Part shown: piece after piece, positions 32,164 to 39,373 of the stretch
How the letters are laid out: the number at the start of each line of letters is the position of its first letter
Position numbering within the stretch: position 1 is the first letter of the stretch
Assembly: GCA_002069885.1 (NCBI GenBank)
Contig: MWCD01000035.1
Location: forward strand, 1-40,955
DNA length: 40,955 nt
Origin: a bacterium ADurb.Bin236
GTDB taxonomy: Bacteria; UBP15; UBA6099
Direction: 5' to 3'
Position numbers and translations under genes: made by a program
Notes under the pieces: model-generated
The model's input: the letters and a program-made list of their open reading frames with translations, nothing else
Database searches by the model: none
Told to the model about the DNA's origin: nothing

Positions 32164-33711
32164 ATGGATGAATTCGTTTCTAAAAAGATTCAAGACTGTA
32201 TTAATCGCGCCGAAGATCTGATTCGCTCAGCGAAAAGAGTTTTAATAAGCGAGGATCTTCCGAATATCTCTTTTTTCCTGTCAATATTAGCGTTGGAGGA
32301 AATTGGCAAAGCAGAAATACTTGCGATGTGTGCGATTTTCAAGGCGGTAGGAAAACCTTATGATAATCAGCTGAAACGCACACATGATCATGTTGGTAAA
32401 ATATTCTGGGCATTATGGCATCCAAGCATCTCAAGCGAGCACATAACAGGCGAACAAATTGGATATTATCAAGGACTTGCAAGAGATCTGTTTAAAAGAA
32501 GAAATCTTGCATTGTACGTTGATTGCTATGAAGGCAAAGTAAACGGTGGCTCACAATCAACCGAGGATATTGAAAAAGAAGAGGCCGAGAGCATGATCGA
32601 TCTTGTGCAAGCCAGAATTAGCCTCGCTAAGGAAAAGGACATCGCATTTATTGATTCAGAGCCAGATGAACTGATTGAGTGGTTTTTTATGATCACCGAG
32701 GACGATAGGAAGAGAAACCAAATATTTGGTGATTTCTATTTGTCGAAGCTTAAAGAACTTGGCAGCGTAAGAGAGTGGTTGGGTTGGTTAAAAGATTGGT
32801 TAGAAAAAGAAGAAGAAGCTGTAAGACAGGTTCTGGTTAAAGAGATTAACAGAAAAGCACCTCAAAAGGGTGAAGGAATATCGAACAAATGGGAAATAAC
32901 GATACGTCTTCAAACACTTTCACACTCAATCAGGCCGAAGACATTGAAACTATGGAACGACAAAGTGGATTCGATACAAATTGCGCCCGTTAGGAGCGGC
33001 AAGAATGAGATCGACGTAAAGTTCATTCTGAGAGAAGATATCACGGTGGACTCTCTCTACTATGCAGGATGGGGTATGGCACGCATGTTCGTAACTGCTA
33101 TCAACATAGGCACGATGGGATTGTTCTGGTGGTATGTGCCAAGAGATATTGATAGGTATTTTATAAAAGTAAAGGATCTACAGTTAATGCATGAAATAGA
33201 AATGGGGATACGGCCAAAGCTTCAGTTGGATTGGGAAAAACATCAAAGAGCATTTTCTGAACAGGATATTGAAAACACGATTTTGAGTTTCATTTTTATT
33301 CCTAGCTCAAATGAAAGGAACCAGCAAGAGCCATTCACTCATTACATAAATGGATTGGCATTTATGTGCAAAAACGATATTTATTTGCGGTTTGAGGCTA
33401 ATGCATATTTTGAATTCTACAAATCTCTAAAAAAAGGAATGGAGTTATATGCAGACTGGAATCCAAGTGAGGATTATTTAAAAGCGTTCACTAAGTTTAT
33501 GTTTGATTTGAAGCCAGATGCTTCTGATTTTGAGAAGTATGTTGCATATGGCGAATTACTCGAAAAACAAGTCGAGACGCCTCAATTAACTCTCGAAGAT
33601 GTGGCAATGATGAAGGCACTATGCGACTGGTATTTTATGAGACAGTTTATGAGAATGGCCGAAGATAGGGCCCTGCAGGAAATCAGAACCGACGATAATG
33701 ACAACTCTTGA
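32164..33711 (+). CDS. AbiV-like abortive infection protein with long C-terminal extension
   Basis: The N-terminal 150 or so residues (AEDLIRSAKRVLISEDLPNIS, LSILALEEIGKAEILAM) match the AbiV pattern, in which a repeated helix pair ends with the LALEEIGKA signature. AbiV of Lactococcus (about 200 residues) binds a phage protein and stops phage translation. This protein is 515 residues, so over 300 residues are extra: an alpha/beta region with FILREDITVDSLYYAGWGMA and a later DIYLRFEANAYFEFYKSL. It is AT-rich against its neighbours and stands alone, as expected of a recently acquired defence gene. The N-terminal match is by eye only. Confidence 0.55.
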   Translation: MDEFVSKKIQDCINRAEDLIRSAKRVLISEDLPNISFFLSILALEEIGKAEILAMCAIFKAVGKPYDNQLKRTHDHVGKIFWALWHPSISSEHITGEQIGYYQGLARDLFKRRNLALYVDCYEGKVNGGSQSTEDIEKEEAESMIDLVQARISLAKEKDIAFIDSEPDELIEWFFMITEDDRKRNQIFGDFYLSKLKELGSVREWLGWLKDWLEKEEEAVRQVLVKEINRKAPQKGEGISNKWEITIRLQTLSHSIRPKTLKLWNDKVDSIQIAPVRSGKNEIDVKFILREDITVDSLYYAGWGMARMFVTAINIGTMGLFWWYVPRDIDRYFIKVKDLQLMHEIEMGIRPKLQLDWEKHQRAFSEQDIENTILSFIFIPSSNERNQQEPFTHYINGLAFMCKNDIYLRFEANAYFEFYKSLKKGMELYADWNPSEDYLKAFTKFMFDLKPDASDFEKYVAYGELLEKQVETPQLTLEDVAMMKALCDWYFMRQFMRMAEDRALQEIRTDDNDNS

Positions 33712-33843: not shown

Positions 33844-35757
33844 TCACCATTCGGCTTTGAGGCCGAAGAAGAGGGGGCCGCCGACCCGGATGTGGTTGTG
33901 CCTCTTCTGGATGAAGTCGTACGCGGCGTCGGGTATCTTGACGTTTATCTGCTGTGGCCGTTTGGCTATTTTCCAGCGCTCTTCGAGCGGGGCTTGTTTG
34001 CCGTCGCGGACGGCGGACTCGACGTCGGCGGCGAATCCGGCGATGACGGCGTCGATGAAGCGAACGCCTGAGCGCGCGCCTTCGTCGTATATCGGCGCGT
34101 ATTTGTCGCCGAGCGCCATCCTGTCCTGCGGCAAGCCGAGGACTTCTCCTTCGTGCGCGTAGATGGTGTTCATGGCGGCCAAGCTGAGCATGGGTTTGCC
34201 GGCGTCCCAGTTGAAGACGGATATTTTTACGTTTTTGCCGAGGACGTCTCCGTCGAAGAGGGGGACTTCTGCGGGGCCGGGGGTGTCTTTGGCGGCGATG
34301 GCTTTTGCGGTCATGGATTCGAGGGCGGAGGCGAGGGCGGAGGATTCGGGCCGCCGGTCGAACGTTATCATGGCGGCGATTTCGGCGTCCGTGAACTCGA
34401 CTTCCTCGTAGAACTGCGGGAACACGAGCGCCCTGAGGTCGGACGCGCCCGTGAGTATCATCGCCATCCGCTCGACTCCGAATCCGATGTTGAAGACGGG
34501 GAGGTCGATGTTGTAGTTGCGGAGCGCGGCGGGGGCGTAGAAGCCGAGGTTTCCGACTTCGATCTGTTCGCCTTTGTATTTGACGAACACTTCGGTGTCC
34601 GTTTCGGGGTCGTAGTATCTGCTGGCGATTTTTTTCTTCTGGAAGTTGCACTCGTCGAAACCGAGGCGTTTGAGGACGTCGATGGTTAGGCGTTTGCCGT
34701 CTTCCATAGTGAGTTTTTCGTCCATGACGACGACGGAGGCGGATGTGCTTTCGAATAGGTGGCGGGGGTCCTGCCGTTGTTCGCGCCTGAAGCGGGAGCC
34801 GACGGAGAACAGCCTGACTGGCAGGGGCATCTTGTGGCGCATGCGTTCGAGAACGGGGAACCAGTTGCTGGTCATGTGCGAGCGCAGGGTTTTCTTGGTG
34901 ACGACAGGCTTGAGTTCCTTGAATTCCGGGAAGACGCGTTCGAGGATTTCCGCGGCTTGGTCGCCGGTGATTTTCAGCCTGAGGGCGAGTTCTTCCAAGA
35001 AGTCGTCGGCTTCGATAGCGGCCTCTTTGTATTCGCGAAGGAGTATGCGGAGGTCTTGTTCGCGGTCGAAGCCGGGGACGATTGCGTTGATGAGTTCGAG
35101 TTTGGGTTTGCTGAGTCCGATGTCCGCGCGGTCGAGTCCGGCGATGTAGAAAACGCGGTCGAGGATGAGCGGGGCTTCGGGGCCGTATTGTTTATAGACG
35201 TGTAGGTCGTCGACGATGGCCGGGTTGATCATTTCGTCGAGGCCGAGGTCGAGGAAGGCTTCGCGGAAGCGCTGGTTGAGGGCGGCGACGGGGTGCTCGC
35301 GCCCGGTTTTCATCGCGAACGCGAGGGCTTCGGCGGCCCCGATTTCGATGGAGCGGCTCAGTTCGCTCATGGGGTGTCCGCGCCCGGCCATCTCGAATGA
35401 TTTGTACCAGCCGAAGGGACACCGGATGATGGGTAGGTCTTCCATGGCGGCCCTCATCATGCGTATGATGCGCAGCGAGTTTTCGGGGCGGCCGAGGTTG
35501 TTCGACAGATGGGAGTATGGATATAGGACGATGGATTTCGCGCCTGTCTGCTGGAATACTTTTTGGATTTCCTCTCGGGCGCGCGCGACCACCGCGTCGG
35601 CGGTTTTCTCGTCGTTCTTTTCGGCGGCTATCATGACCACCAGAGCGTCGTCTACGGCTGCTTCGCGGACGACGGGCGGCTCTATTTTTTCAGCGAACTT
35701 CGTCTGTTCGGTCGCCCTGAAGGAAAACGGGGCGGAATGTATCATAAGCAGTTTCAT
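33844..35757 (-). CDS. sepS: O-phosphoseryl-tRNA synthetase with fused archaeal ThrRS-type editing domain
   Basis: The 637-residue protein joins two parts. Residues 1-140 are an archaeal-type ThrRS editing domain (MKLLMIHSAPFSF; YPYSHLSNN with H83; PFGWYKSFE with Y118 and K119; GHPMSELSR with E132), which in archaea removes serine from tRNA-Thr. Residues 155-637 are a class II SepRS, which loads phosphoserine on tRNA-Cys: LRSHMTSNWF (289-300), FRREQRQD (motif 2, 323-330), STSAS (337-341), YYDPETDTEVF (381-391), NIGFGVERMAMIL (motif 3, 423-435) and a C-terminal anticodon-binding part. Residues I remember as binding phosphoserine in archaeal SepRS (HMT, SAS, TxT, N of NIGFG) are all kept. GGAGG precedes the ATG. 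SepCysS, the partner that turns Sep-tRNA into Cys-tRNA, is absent here. Confidence 0.9.
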   Translation of the reverse strand: MKLLMIHSAPFSFRATEQTKFAEKIEPPVVREAAVDDALVVMIAAEKNDEKTADAVVARAREEIQKVFQQTGAKSIVLYPYSHLSNNLGRPENSLRIIRMMRAAMEDLPIIRCPFGWYKSFEMAGRGHPMSELSRSIEIGAAEALAFAMKTGREHPVAALNQRFREAFLDLGLDEMINPAIVDDLHVYKQYGPEAPLILDRVFYIAGLDRADIGLSKPKLELINAIVPGFDREQDLRILLREYKEAAIEADDFLEELALRLKITGDQAAEILERVFPEFKELKPVVTKKTLRSHMTSNWFPVLERMRHKMPLPVRLFSVGSRFRREQRQDPRHLFESTSASVVVMDEKLTMEDGKRLTIDVLKRLGFDECNFQKKKIASRYYDPETDTEVFVKYKGEQIEVGNLGFYAPAALRNYNIDLPVFNIGFGVERMAMILTGASDLRALVFPQFYEEVEFTDAEIAAMITFDRRPESSALASALESMTAKAIAAKDTPGPAEVPLFDGDVLGKNVKISVFNWDAGKPMLSLAAMNTIYAHEGEVLGLPQDRMALGDKYAPIYDEGARSGVRFIDAVIAGFAADVESAVRDGKQAPLEERWKIAKRPQQINVKIPDAAYDFIQKRHNHIRVGGPLFFGLKAEW

Positions 35758-35859
35758 CGAAGCTCTCCTCCGCCGGGCCGACTGTGGTTTCTGCGTCCGG
35801 CGTTCCAATAATGTTAATACATAAGGGCGAAGAATTAAAGGCGCGCGGGCGCTCGCGGC

Positions 35860-35993: not shown

Positions 35994-38390
35994 ATGGACT
36001 GCGATTGCGGCTCGACCGGAACGATGATATGGAAAGAGGCGGATACGCTTCCTCCGCGCGTCAAAAGGCTCCGGGACGAGTATTTCTCGTTCTACGAGCG
36101 GGACTATTTCCGCAACGAGGCGCTCGGGTTCTCCACGGGCGCGCAATGGGACGTGCTGTGGCGGTCATATAACTGGGGCATCAATCCTGAAATTTTTCCG
36201 TTTTTCGCGGCGATTGAGGACTCTCTGCTCGCGTCGGCGGTCATTGTGAAAACGCCTGAAAGTTTCTGGAAGCTGCCGCTTGTCCGTCGGCGGTCGCTGT
36301 TCTTTTCCGAAGTTTTAAGAAAGCATTTGCCGGCGCAGATACTTGAGGGCGAGTTGATTGTGGGCGCGCAGTTCAACAACGCGATGTCCCTGTGCCTGAA
36401 CAAGGCGGAGGCGAAGGGGTTCCGGGCGGCGCAGAAGAAGTGGTGGGACGCCGCGCAGGTTCTGAACGACACCGGTGTGGGCAACTGCGGGGCGGTGCCG
36501 GGGCATCTGATTCCGAACTACAAAAAAGCCGTTGAGATAGGATTCGCCGGGTACGCCGAGGAGATAAAAGCGGAACTGAGGAAGCAGCCGGATGAGAGGA
36601 AGCGGGCGCAGTTGCAGGCGATGTTGGAGTGTTGCGAGGCCGTTCCGGATTTCACGTCGCGGTATGCGGCGGAGGCGGAAAGGCTGGCGGCAGCCGAGGG
36701 CGACGCGGCGCGCCGCGCGGAGCTTGCCGAGATAGCGCGAGTCTGCCGCAAGGTTCCGTGGAACCCGCCGGAAACGTTCGCGGAGTCCCTGCAGGCGGTG
36801 TGGTTCACGCACATGCTGGCGATGTTCTCCGAGTCCTATCCGGGGCCGGGCGTCTCGCACGGGCGCATCGACCAGTACCTGTTCCCGCTGTACAAGAAGA
36901 GCGTCGAGCAGGGAATGACGAGGGAGCAGGCGCGCGAGTTGCTGATGTGTTTCTGGATAAAACACAATTATGCTTATGATTTCATGGGCCGCGTCGGGGC
37001 CAATCAGGGAATAAATTCAGGGTTCGGGCAGTTGGTCACGTTGAGCGGGTGCGGGCCTGACGGCTCAGACCTGACGAACGAGCTGACGATGCTCATGCTG
37101 GACGTTATCGAGGAAATAAACATGCTGGAGCCGAAGCCGAACGTGAGGCTGCACAGGAACTCGCCGCCGGAGCTGGTGGAGCGGGTGGGCGGGATGCTGT
37201 CCAAGGCGCAGGGCGCGCCCGTGCTGCTCAACTTCGACGAGGCGTCCATGCGCGGCCTCAAGTGGCAGGGCATGCCGGAGGGCGAGCTGTGGGACTACGC
37301 GCCCGTCGGATGCCTAGAAAACGCGTTTCAGGGCTGCGATCGCTCCGGCACGGTGGACGTCAACCTCAACTTGGCCAAAGCGGTTGAACTTACGCTTAAC
37401 GACGGTTGCGATTTGGCTACCGGACGGCGAATCGGCCCGAAGACGGGCGACCCGGCGGCTTTCGACTCGTTCGACAAATTCTACGCCGCCTTCAACGCGC
37501 AGCTTGACGCCCTGCTGGACGTCATCTGCGAGTGCGTCGAGACGGCGGACTTCGTCCGCTCCAAATACGAGTTCATCCCTTATCTGTCCGTCCTTGTGGA
37601 CGGCTGCATGGAGAACGGCAGGGACATCAACGAGGGCGGCGCGAAATACAACTACATAACCGTCGAGGGCATCGCGTTCGGCACGACGGTGGACTCCGTC
37701 GCGGCTGTGAAGAAGGTGGTGTTTGAGGAGGGCAGGGTGTCGATGCCCGACCTTGTGGCGGCTATCAAGGCCAACTACGAAGGACACGAAAAGACGCGCC
37801 AGTTCATGATGAACCGCGCGCCGAAATACGGCACGGACGACAACGAGGCCGACGCGCTGGCGGCTGAGATTAACAAGAGGTGGACGGAGCGGGCGTTCGC
37901 TCGCGTCTCCCCCCACACCGGCAAACGGTTCCGGGGCGGCTACCTTTCTTGGAACTACTGGATAGCGTACGCGCCTTTCACAGCCGCCACGCCAGACGGC
38001 AGAAAGCGCGGCTCGTTCCTGTCCAACGGCATAGGCCCGGTGAACGGGATGGACCGCAAAGGGCCGACCGCCAACATCCGCTCCGTAGGCAAGGTCGGGC
38101 TTGAGTCCGCTCCCAACGGGGCGTCGCACACCATCAGCGTCAGCCCGTCGCTGTTGCGCGACCCCGAACACGTGACGAAACTTTCGTCCATGCTGCGGGC
38201 GTACGCGCTCGAAGGCGGCACCGCGCTTCAGGTGAATGTGCTCGACCCCGACACTCTCCGGCGCGCTCAGAAAAATCCAGAAGAATACCGCAACCTGCTG
38301 GTCAGGGTCACCGGCTACAACGCCTATTTCGTGAACCTCGGCAGAGAGATTCAGGACGAGATAATCGCGCGCGAGGCGGGGGTTCTCTGA
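35994..38390 (+). CDS. Glycyl radical enzyme of unassigned substrate
   Basis: The 798-residue cytoplasmic enzyme has the ten-stranded PFL-type fold marks: SHGRIDQYLFPLY, the thiyl loop APVGCLENAFQG (C440, E442) and the C-terminal radical loop RVTGYNAYFVNLGREIQDEI with G774 as radical site. A Cys-x-Glu thiyl motif separates dehydratases, lyases and decarboxylases from pyruvate formate-lyase, which has two adjacent cysteines. The residues after the glutamate (Asn, not Pro as in choline lyase or glycerol dehydratase) and NVNLNLAK fit no group I can name. GGGAG precedes the start. The activase follows 48 bases later. Confidence 0.85.
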   Translation: MDCDCGSTGTMIWKEADTLPPRVKRLRDEYFSFYERDYFRNEALGFSTGAQWDVLWRSYNWGINPEIFPFFAAIEDSLLASAVIVKTPESFWKLPLVRRRSLFFSEVLRKHLPAQILEGELIVGAQFNNAMSLCLNKAEAKGFRAAQKKWWDAAQVLNDTGVGNCGAVPGHLIPNYKKAVEIGFAGYAEEIKAELRKQPDERKRAQLQAMLECCEAVPDFTSRYAAEAERLAAAEGDAARRAELAEIARVCRKVPWNPPETFAESLQAVWFTHMLAMFSESYPGPGVSHGRIDQYLFPLYKKSVEQGMTREQARELLMCFWIKHNYAYDFMGRVGANQGINSGFGQLVTLSGCGPDGSDLTNELTMLMLDVIEEINMLEPKPNVRLHRNSPPELVERVGGMLSKAQGAPVLLNFDEASMRGLKWQGMPEGELWDYAPVGCLENAFQGCDRSGTVDVNLNLAKAVELTLNDGCDLATGRRIGPKTGDPAAFDSFDKFYAAFNAQLDALLDVICECVETADFVRSKYEFIPYLSVLVDGCMENGRDINEGGAKYNYITVEGIAFGTTVDSVAAVKKVVFEEGRVSMPDLVAAIKANYEGHEKTRQFMMNRAPKYGTDDNEADALAAEINKRWTERAFARVSPHTGKRFRGGYLSWNYWIAYAPFTAATPDGRKRGSFLSNGIGPVNGMDRKGPTANIRSVGKVGLESAPNGASHTISVSPSLLRDPEHVTKLSSMLRAYALEGGTALQVNVLDPDTLRRAQKNPEEYRNLLVRVTGYNAYFVNLGREIQDEIIAREAGVL

Positions 38391-38437
38391 GAGATGCGCC
38401 GAACCGCCACCATGACCGCGCTTCCGGCGGCGCGCCG

Positions 38438-39373
38438 ATGAGCCGCGAAGCTGTCATCTTCAACGTCCAACGCTTTAGCACCGAGGACGGCCCCGGCATC
38501 CGCACCACATGTTTTCTCAAAGGCTGCCCCCTCTCATGCGTGTGGTGCCACAACCCCGAAGGCATATCTCCGCGCCCGCAGACGATGTGGTACGACGTCA
38601 GGTGCATCGGCTGCCGCAGTTGCGTGGACGTCTGCCCGGTGGGCGCGCTCACGGCGGGCGACAAAGGCATTAAGATTAACCGCTCCACATGTTCGGCGTG
38701 CGGCAAATGCGCGGACGCCTGCCCGGCGGCGGCCATCGAGATTATCGGCAAGAGCTGGACGCCGGAGGCTCTTACGGACGAGGTTCTGCGGGACTCCGCG
38801 TTCTATGAAACATCGGGCGGCGGGGTGACGATATCCGGCGGCGAGCCTCTGGCGCAACACGAGTTCGTTATGGATTTCATCAGCAGATGCAAAGGGGCCG
38901 GACTGCATGTCGCGCTGGACACCTCCGGCTACGCCGCCCCCGCCGTGTTCGACCCCGCCGCCGACGCCGCGGACATGGTTCTGCTTGACCTCAAAACGAT
39001 GAACCCCGCCGCGCACCTCGAACTCACAGGCGTCCCCCTTGAACCAGTGCTGCGCAGCGCCCGCAGTCTCGGAGAAACCCGCAAACGCGTGTGGATCCGC
39101 ACCCCGGTTATCCCCGGCGCCACGGATTCAGACGAGAACATAACCGCTGTCGCCCGCTTCATCGCGGACAACATTCCCGGCTGCGACCGCTACGATATAT
39201 TGCCGTTCAGCAATATTTGCGCGTCCAAGTACGAGAGGCTGGGCATGGAGTTCAGGTTCAAGGAAACCCCGCTAGTGCCGATGGAAAGGATGGAAGAGTT
39301 AAAAGCCGACGCCGAACGCGCCGGCGCCCCCAACGTCGTCATTCAAGGCCTCACCACAAGAAAACCCCAATAA
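38438..39373 (+). CDS. Glycyl-radical-enzyme activating protein (radical SAM)
   Basis: The 311-residue activase abstracts the hydrogen from the glycine of its partner using S-adenosylmethionine. Marks are FSTEDGPGIRTTCFLKGC, the radical SAM cluster C30-x3-C34-x2-C37 (CPLSCVWC), two 4Fe-4S inserts (C56, C59, C62, C66 and C85, C88, C91, C95) and TISGGEPLAQ. The two extra clusters are usual for activases of non-PFL glycyl radical enzymes. It directly follows the enzyme gene on the same strand, so they form one operon. Oxygen sensitivity of both implies anoxic growth. Confidence 0.92.
   Translation: MSREAVIFNVQRFSTEDGPGIRTTCFLKGCPLSCVWCHNPEGISPRPQTMWYDVRCIGCRSCVDVCPVGALTAGDKGIKINRSTCSACGKCADACPAAAIEIIGKSWTPEALTDEVLRDSAFYETSGGGVTISGGEPLAQHEFVMDFISRCKGAGLHVALDTSGYAAPAVFDPAADAADMVLLDLKTMNPAAHLELTGVPLEPVLRSARSLGETRKRVWIRTPVIPGATDSDENITAVARFIADNIPGCDRYDILPFSNICASKYERLGMEFRFKETPLVPMERMEELKADAERAGAPNVVIQGLTTRKPQ

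Follow-up and report, generated by a model that had tools for sequence, protein, structure and literature searches.

A threonyl-tRNA synthetase-type editing domain fused to phosphoseryl-tRNA synthetase in bacterium ADurb.Bin236: conservation, genomic setting and a candidate role in clearing Ser-tRNA-Cys

Bacterium ADurb.Bin236 (GTDB lineage UBP15; UBA6099) encodes a phosphoseryl-tRNA synthetase (SepRS) bearing at its amino terminus an editing domain akin to that of archaeal threonyl-tRNA synthetase (ThrRS). The gene occupies positions 33844..35757 on the reverse strand of the stretch of DNA analyzed here (the window, 40,955 nucleotides of contig MWCD01000035.1, assembly GCA_002069885.1), and a single open frame encodes 637 amino acids followed by a stop codon. 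A fusion of this kind is already published: Mukai et al. 2017 (PMC5424206) described a bacterial SepRS with an N-terminal tRNA-Thr-ED fusion, OQA87054.1 of bacterium ADurb.Bin236, and Mukai et al. 2022 (PMC8762117, section 3.2.2) described bacterial SepRSs with this editing domain fused N-terminally. Editing of Ser-tRNA-Cys was proposed for the fusion in both papers, and U73 of bacterial tRNA-Gly was offered as a reason why fusion restrains the domain (PMC5424206, PMC8762117). An initial reading of this DNA, made from the sequence alone, had stated that no fusion of this kind was described, a claim that these reports overturn. A literature search found no paper, including none later than Mukai 2022, testing the enzymology of the fusion or its proofreading substrate.

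Here, we describe a computational analysis of this fusion, its conservation among relatives and its genomic setting. The setting is what is new: SepCysS with a putative SepCysSn, a cysteinyl-tRNA synthetase (CysRS), cysE and cysK, an archaeal-type ThrRS, two bodies of tRNA-Cys and, in relatives, a free copy of the domain with an altered pocket. From comparison of these sequences we favor, with moderate confidence, the view that the fused enzyme charges tRNA-Cys with phosphoserine (Sep) and clears serine from tRNA-Cys in cis.

Results

Profile searches divide the protein into two parts. Residues 1-137 (35347..35757, on the reverse strand, as are all features of this gene) match PF08915, tRNA-Thr_ED, over model positions 1-137 of 137, with 133.2 bits against a gathering score of 30.2 and an expectation value (E) of 8.7e-39, and the nearest solved structure for this part in a PDB search is the editing domain of M. 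jannaschii ThrRS (4rrf, 107 bits). The SepRS body comprises residues 152-637 (33847..35304). The NCBIfam model sepS, TIGR00470, matches residues 149-636 with 456.6 bits, above its equivalog cut-off of 380.65, and the best PDB matches of this half are the SepRSs of M. jannaschii, M. maripaludis and A. fulgidus, with E values of 1e-101 to 1e-110; the C-terminal Pfam model SepRS_C is matched weakly (15.4 bits against a cut-off of 26.9). Assignment of this half to another class II enzyme is ruled out, as the PheRS and PylRS models score far lower. Residues 138-151 (35305..35346) form a linker, the fastest-evolving stretch of the protein by replacement divergence (pN) against a relative. The frame opens with an ATG at position 35757 and is unbroken for 637 residues, and a Shine-Dalgarno-like GGAGGAG stands 7 bases ahead of the ATG (approximately 35765..35771). 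The sequence-only reading was thus exact in coordinates, strand and frame when it described a ThrRS-type editing domain fused to a complete SepRS, and the profile search that it had set beforehand returned SepRS, not another class II synthetase, for the C-terminal half.

Structure prediction, which it had also called for, agreed with this division at the level of domain folds and was of low quality for the protein as a whole. The N-terminal domain of the AlphaFold model superposes on 4rrf with a template modeling (TM) score of 0.87-0.88, and the remainder finds SepRS first. The full-length model is poor, with a predicted local distance difference test (pLDDT) score of 61.7 and a predicted TM score (pTM) of 0.35, and was used for domain folds only.

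The residues expected at the two active sites are retained, as had been noticed in the initial reading. Class II motif 2 (RFRREQ, residues 322-327, 34777..34794) and motif 3 (GFGVER, residues 425-430, 34468..34485) were located by alignment, and T388 is kept. The segment HMTS (residues 294-297, 34867..34878), which we take from the SepRS structures to be part of the Sep pocket, is identical in the M. jannaschii and M. maripaludis enzymes. Residues S339-A340-S341 (34735..34743), presumably the contact to the Sep phosphate, are likewise identical in M. jannaschii SepRS. The Asn-X-Gly motif is present as N423-I-G425 (34483..34491); it is the mark of a genuine SepRS, and use of Sep is doubtful for the SepRS-like proteins that have lost it (PMC8762117).

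In the editing domain, all four pocket residues align with those of the characterized archaeal domains: H83 (35509..35511) with H83 of PabNTD, Y118-K119 (35401..35406) with Y120-K121, and E132 (35362..35364) with E134. The informative residue among them is K119, because substitution of Met for this Lys severely compromises the activity of PabNTD and ApNTD, whereas the Tyr and the Glu are dispensable in both and the 2'-OH of A76 participates in the chemistry (PMC4491819). The characterized domains refuse Thr-tRNA, even after removal of pocket side chains (PMC4491819). Of the two substrates proposed in the sequence-only reading, therefore, threonine is unlikely, while removal of serine from tRNA-Cys stands as a reasonable hypothesis, and one already published.

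We examined conservation in a phylum sample of seven genomes, the host (G000) and its relatives G001-G006. The fusion is intact in a sister species of the same genus (G005, 99% identity, same length) and in a member of another family of the same order (G002, 637 amino acids, 64% identity); in G003 it is in frame, with 72% identity over part of its length, and the contig ends inside the editing domain. A search of genome contigs with two exact peptide patterns, which would miss divergent fusions such as the published Nitrospirae case, found three close fusions, in the metagenome-assembled USMO_maxbin.112, RA.bin91 and Dive96_bin1.91, and these loci are probably the same records as those of G005, G003 and G002, respectively. 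As the genomes under comparison are drafts, and the named records come from metagenome assembly, a misassembly or frameshift joining two genes had to be considered. This explanation retains practically no weight: independent assemblies have the fusion in frame and at the same length, with identities of 99% and 64% and, for a partial copy, 72%, and independent cases exist in the literature (PMC8762117). The in-frame fusion in these three related genomes, a comparison likewise set beforehand, rules it out.

Both halves are under purifying selection. Between the host and G005 there are 2 replacement and 10 silent changes in the editing domain, and 4 replacement and 31 silent changes in the SepRS part; the paucity of replacement changes in the editing domain argues that this domain is maintained by selection. 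Against G002, pN is 0.67 in the linker, compared with 0.32 and 0.21 in the two parts that flank it.

The partner of SepRS is encoded elsewhere in the host genome (assembly of 3.87 Mb, 92.6% complete). SepCysS is found at G000:C99 (TIGR02539, 502 bits), and it scores above the family cut-off in every genome holding the fusion. Immediately upstream of the host gene, and overlapping its start, lies a 65-amino-acid open reading frame (ORF; locus L088), which is read as a putative SepCysSn by its size, its position and the published arrangement. The presence of SepCysS supports the suggestion, made from the window alone, that this bacterium may make cysteine on tRNA. This is an additional route to cysteine in the host rather than the sole one, because CysRS (504 bits) and an adjacent pair of cysE and cysK genes are encoded as well; both charging systems also coexist in other organisms (PMC8762117). 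With CysRS, tRNA-independent cysteine synthesis and two tRNA-Cys bodies all encoded, the fused enzyme might have ceased to charge tRNA-Cys for translation and have taken on another role, CysRS, cysE and cysK covering the need for cysteine. We consider this very unlikely, since the enzyme retains its Sep pocket, together with the Asn-X-Gly motif, SepCysS accompanies every fusion, and the coexistence just mentioned has precedent.

Additional SepCysS-like proteins that fall under the family cut-off are encoded at L100:5752-6945 (G002:C121, 339 bits) and L101:3116-5269 (G001:C2, 319 bits), and the gene in G002 adjoins two ORFs that, judged by eye from the sequence, resemble TusA and threonine synthase. 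The SepCysS contigs also encode very cysteine-rich repeat proteins, at L088:4557-6044 in the host and L089:12175-18000 in G005, which are open-ended and at least 495 and at least 1941 amino acids long, respectively; such proteins would increase the demand for cysteine.

Two distinct tRNA-Cys(GCA) bodies, approximately 75% identical to each other, are present in the host genome, and both possess U73 and A37. Type A (L066, G000:C2:147987-148058; acceptor GGCGACG) also occurs in G001, G002, G005 and G006. Type B (acceptor GGCCGTG) is represented by two identical copies, L083 (G000:C3:55647-55718) and L084 (G000:C24:30864-30935); every genus-mate carries this type, which is multi-copy across the genus, and diverged forms occur in G001 and G003, the type B tRNA of G003 lying directly upstream of cysE. 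Only type A was found in G002, whose CysRS is 36% identical to that of the host. Across four genera, all with incomplete genomes, type B co-occurs with one type of CysRS, a pattern that weakly suggests that it belongs with CysRS. The sequences gave no decision when we attempted to assign one body to SepRS, as both combine the GCA anticodon with U73 and A37.

U73 likewise occurs in every tRNA-Thr and tRNA-Gly gene read from the host genome; it is the base on which the archaeal editing domain is believed to depend for recognition (PMC11295145). Because archaeal domains hydrolyze Gly-tRNA-Gly even better than Ser-tRNA-Thr (PMC4491819), the U73-bearing tRNA-Gly is a plausible off-target. The same preference, together with a fold shared with D-aminoacyl-tRNA deacylases (PMC4491819) and the U73 of tRNA-Thr, lends some substance to the alternative that the domain edits a different substrate on tRNA-Cys (Gly, a small non-cognate or a D-amino acid), or that it acts in trans on Ser-tRNA-Thr as a backup for ThrRS. 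We regard this alternative as unlikely. The host ThrRS (L001, G000:C7) is of the archaeal type and has its own DTD-like editing domain with the same pocket residues as the fusion, and action in cis is the simpler proposal, as SepRS binds tRNA-Cys.

Stand-alone copies of the editing domain are encoded in G002 (L132, G002:C22:42346-42771, approximately 20 kb from the SepRS gene of that genome) and in G001 (L128, G001:C261), where a DsrE-like ORF follows. At the pocket, both free copies have F in place of Y, N in place of K and R in place of E. The change from Lys to Asn is compatible with activity of the domain in the tethered state only, but does not prove it. These copies also bear on whether the fused domain is an enzyme at all. 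Archaeal editing domains are dimers whose pocket residues are supplied by both monomers (PMC4491819), so that the domain could aid assembly, and it might therefore be an acceptor-stem-binding or oligomerization module that replaces the usual N-terminal extension of SepRS, with hydrolysis weak or irrelevant. Retention of a pocket is not expected of a pure binding function, however, and the fused copies keep all four residues, including K119, whereas the Tyr, the Lys and the Glu are gone from the free copies within this order; we therefore judge this alternative to be rather unlikely.

In a tree of the editing domains, built from few sequences and with long branches, each of the three kinds of copy from this group (free, fused to SepRS, or on ThrRS) forms its own clade. 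Recent capture of the host's own ThrRS editing domain was considered and is not supported, as the identity is 38% and the clades are separate, with support of 100/99. Grouping of the fused copies with bacterial ThrRS copies gave a p value of 0.46 in the approximately unbiased (AU) test, again with few sequences and long branches.

In the window, the SepRS gene adjoins a gene at 32164-33711 on the forward strand that encodes an AbiV-type HEPN domain protein (PF18728, 56 bits), a candidate anti-phage abortive-infection gene. Divergent from the SepRS gene, at 35994-39373 on the forward strand, are genes for a glycyl radical enzyme of the pyruvate formate-lyase type and its radical SAM activating enzyme, and G005 has the same glycyl radical enzyme and activase neighbors at its fusion gene. 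Rfam and tRNA scans around the fusion gene gave no match, a promoter scan at the gene was no better than chance level, and a plasmid search gave no match.

Discussion

The architecture of this protein and its conservation, the partner genes, the retained pocket residues and the pattern of U73 are consistent with a self-editing SepRS. In the mechanism that we propose, the SepRS half would load phosphoserine onto tRNA-Cys, and SepCysS would then convert Sep-tRNA-Cys into Cys-tRNA-Cys. Ser-tRNA-Cys might arise either when Sep-tRNA-Cys is dephosphorylated or through mischarging; the CCA end would then shift out of the synthetic site into the editing site, and the N-terminal domain would hydrolyze Ser-tRNA-Cys. 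Tethering to SepRS may also keep the hydrolase away from Gly-tRNA-Gly, which it could attack if free; damage to this tRNA would be limited by tethering or, in the free copies, by loss of the Lys.

Every enzymatic step, the substrate, the direction of editing, the benefit and the reason for fusion are things that we infer, and several points weigh against this proposal. The origin of Ser-tRNA-Cys is a question, one raised also by Mukai 2022 (PMC8762117), and the presence of CysRS, cysE and cysK in the same cell leaves the weight of editing in doubt. Additionally, the full-length model, with its low pTM, is too poor to show the CCA end reaching both sites.

A broader and more speculative proposal concerns the order as a whole. 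The domain may have been kept competent only on ThrRS and SepRS, free copies having lost the Lys because an active domain at large would do harm where tRNA-Gly has U73, and in parallel the two tRNA-Cys bodies may have been divided between CysRS and the self-editing SepRS. We hold this scenario to be doubtful. The lineage nevertheless constitutes a compact natural test set, comprising a fused copy, a ThrRS copy, a free copy with an altered pocket, two tRNA-Cys bodies and a U73-bearing tRNA-Gly. If editing of Ser-tRNA-Cys proves true, the fusion would be a case of proofreading within an indirect, tRNA-dependent amino-acid route, and would help to make clear how a phosphoserine intermediate on tRNA can be tolerated by cells.

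Comparison with known systems places the fusion among those already reported. The published bacterial SepRS fusions (Mukai 2017, 2022) likewise have the editing domain ahead of SepRS, joined by a short linker, and share the retained Ser-editing residues and a bacterial host, with SepCysSn-SepCysS encoded elsewhere in the genome, as SepCysS and its putative SepCysSn are here; compared by description rather than by sequence identity, nothing essential differs. The stand-alone tRNA-Thr-ED genes that adjoin archaeal clade VII SepCysS (Mukai 2017, PMC5424206) belong to the same domain family and are tied to the same SepRS/SepCysS route, but there the domain and its partner are separate genes, whereas here they are joined in cis. 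The archaeal SepRSs of M. jannaschii (2du7), M. maripaludis (2odr) and A. fulgidus (2du3) share with the fusion the whole synthetase body, the class II motifs and the Sep pocket residues, and lack the editing domain. Finally, the archaeal ThrRS editing domains MjNTD (4rrf) and PabNTD (1y2q) match the N-terminal part over its full length, with 41% and 35% identity, respectively; in those enzymes the domain sits on ThrRS, and in bacterium ADurb.Bin236 the same type of domain sits on SepRS.
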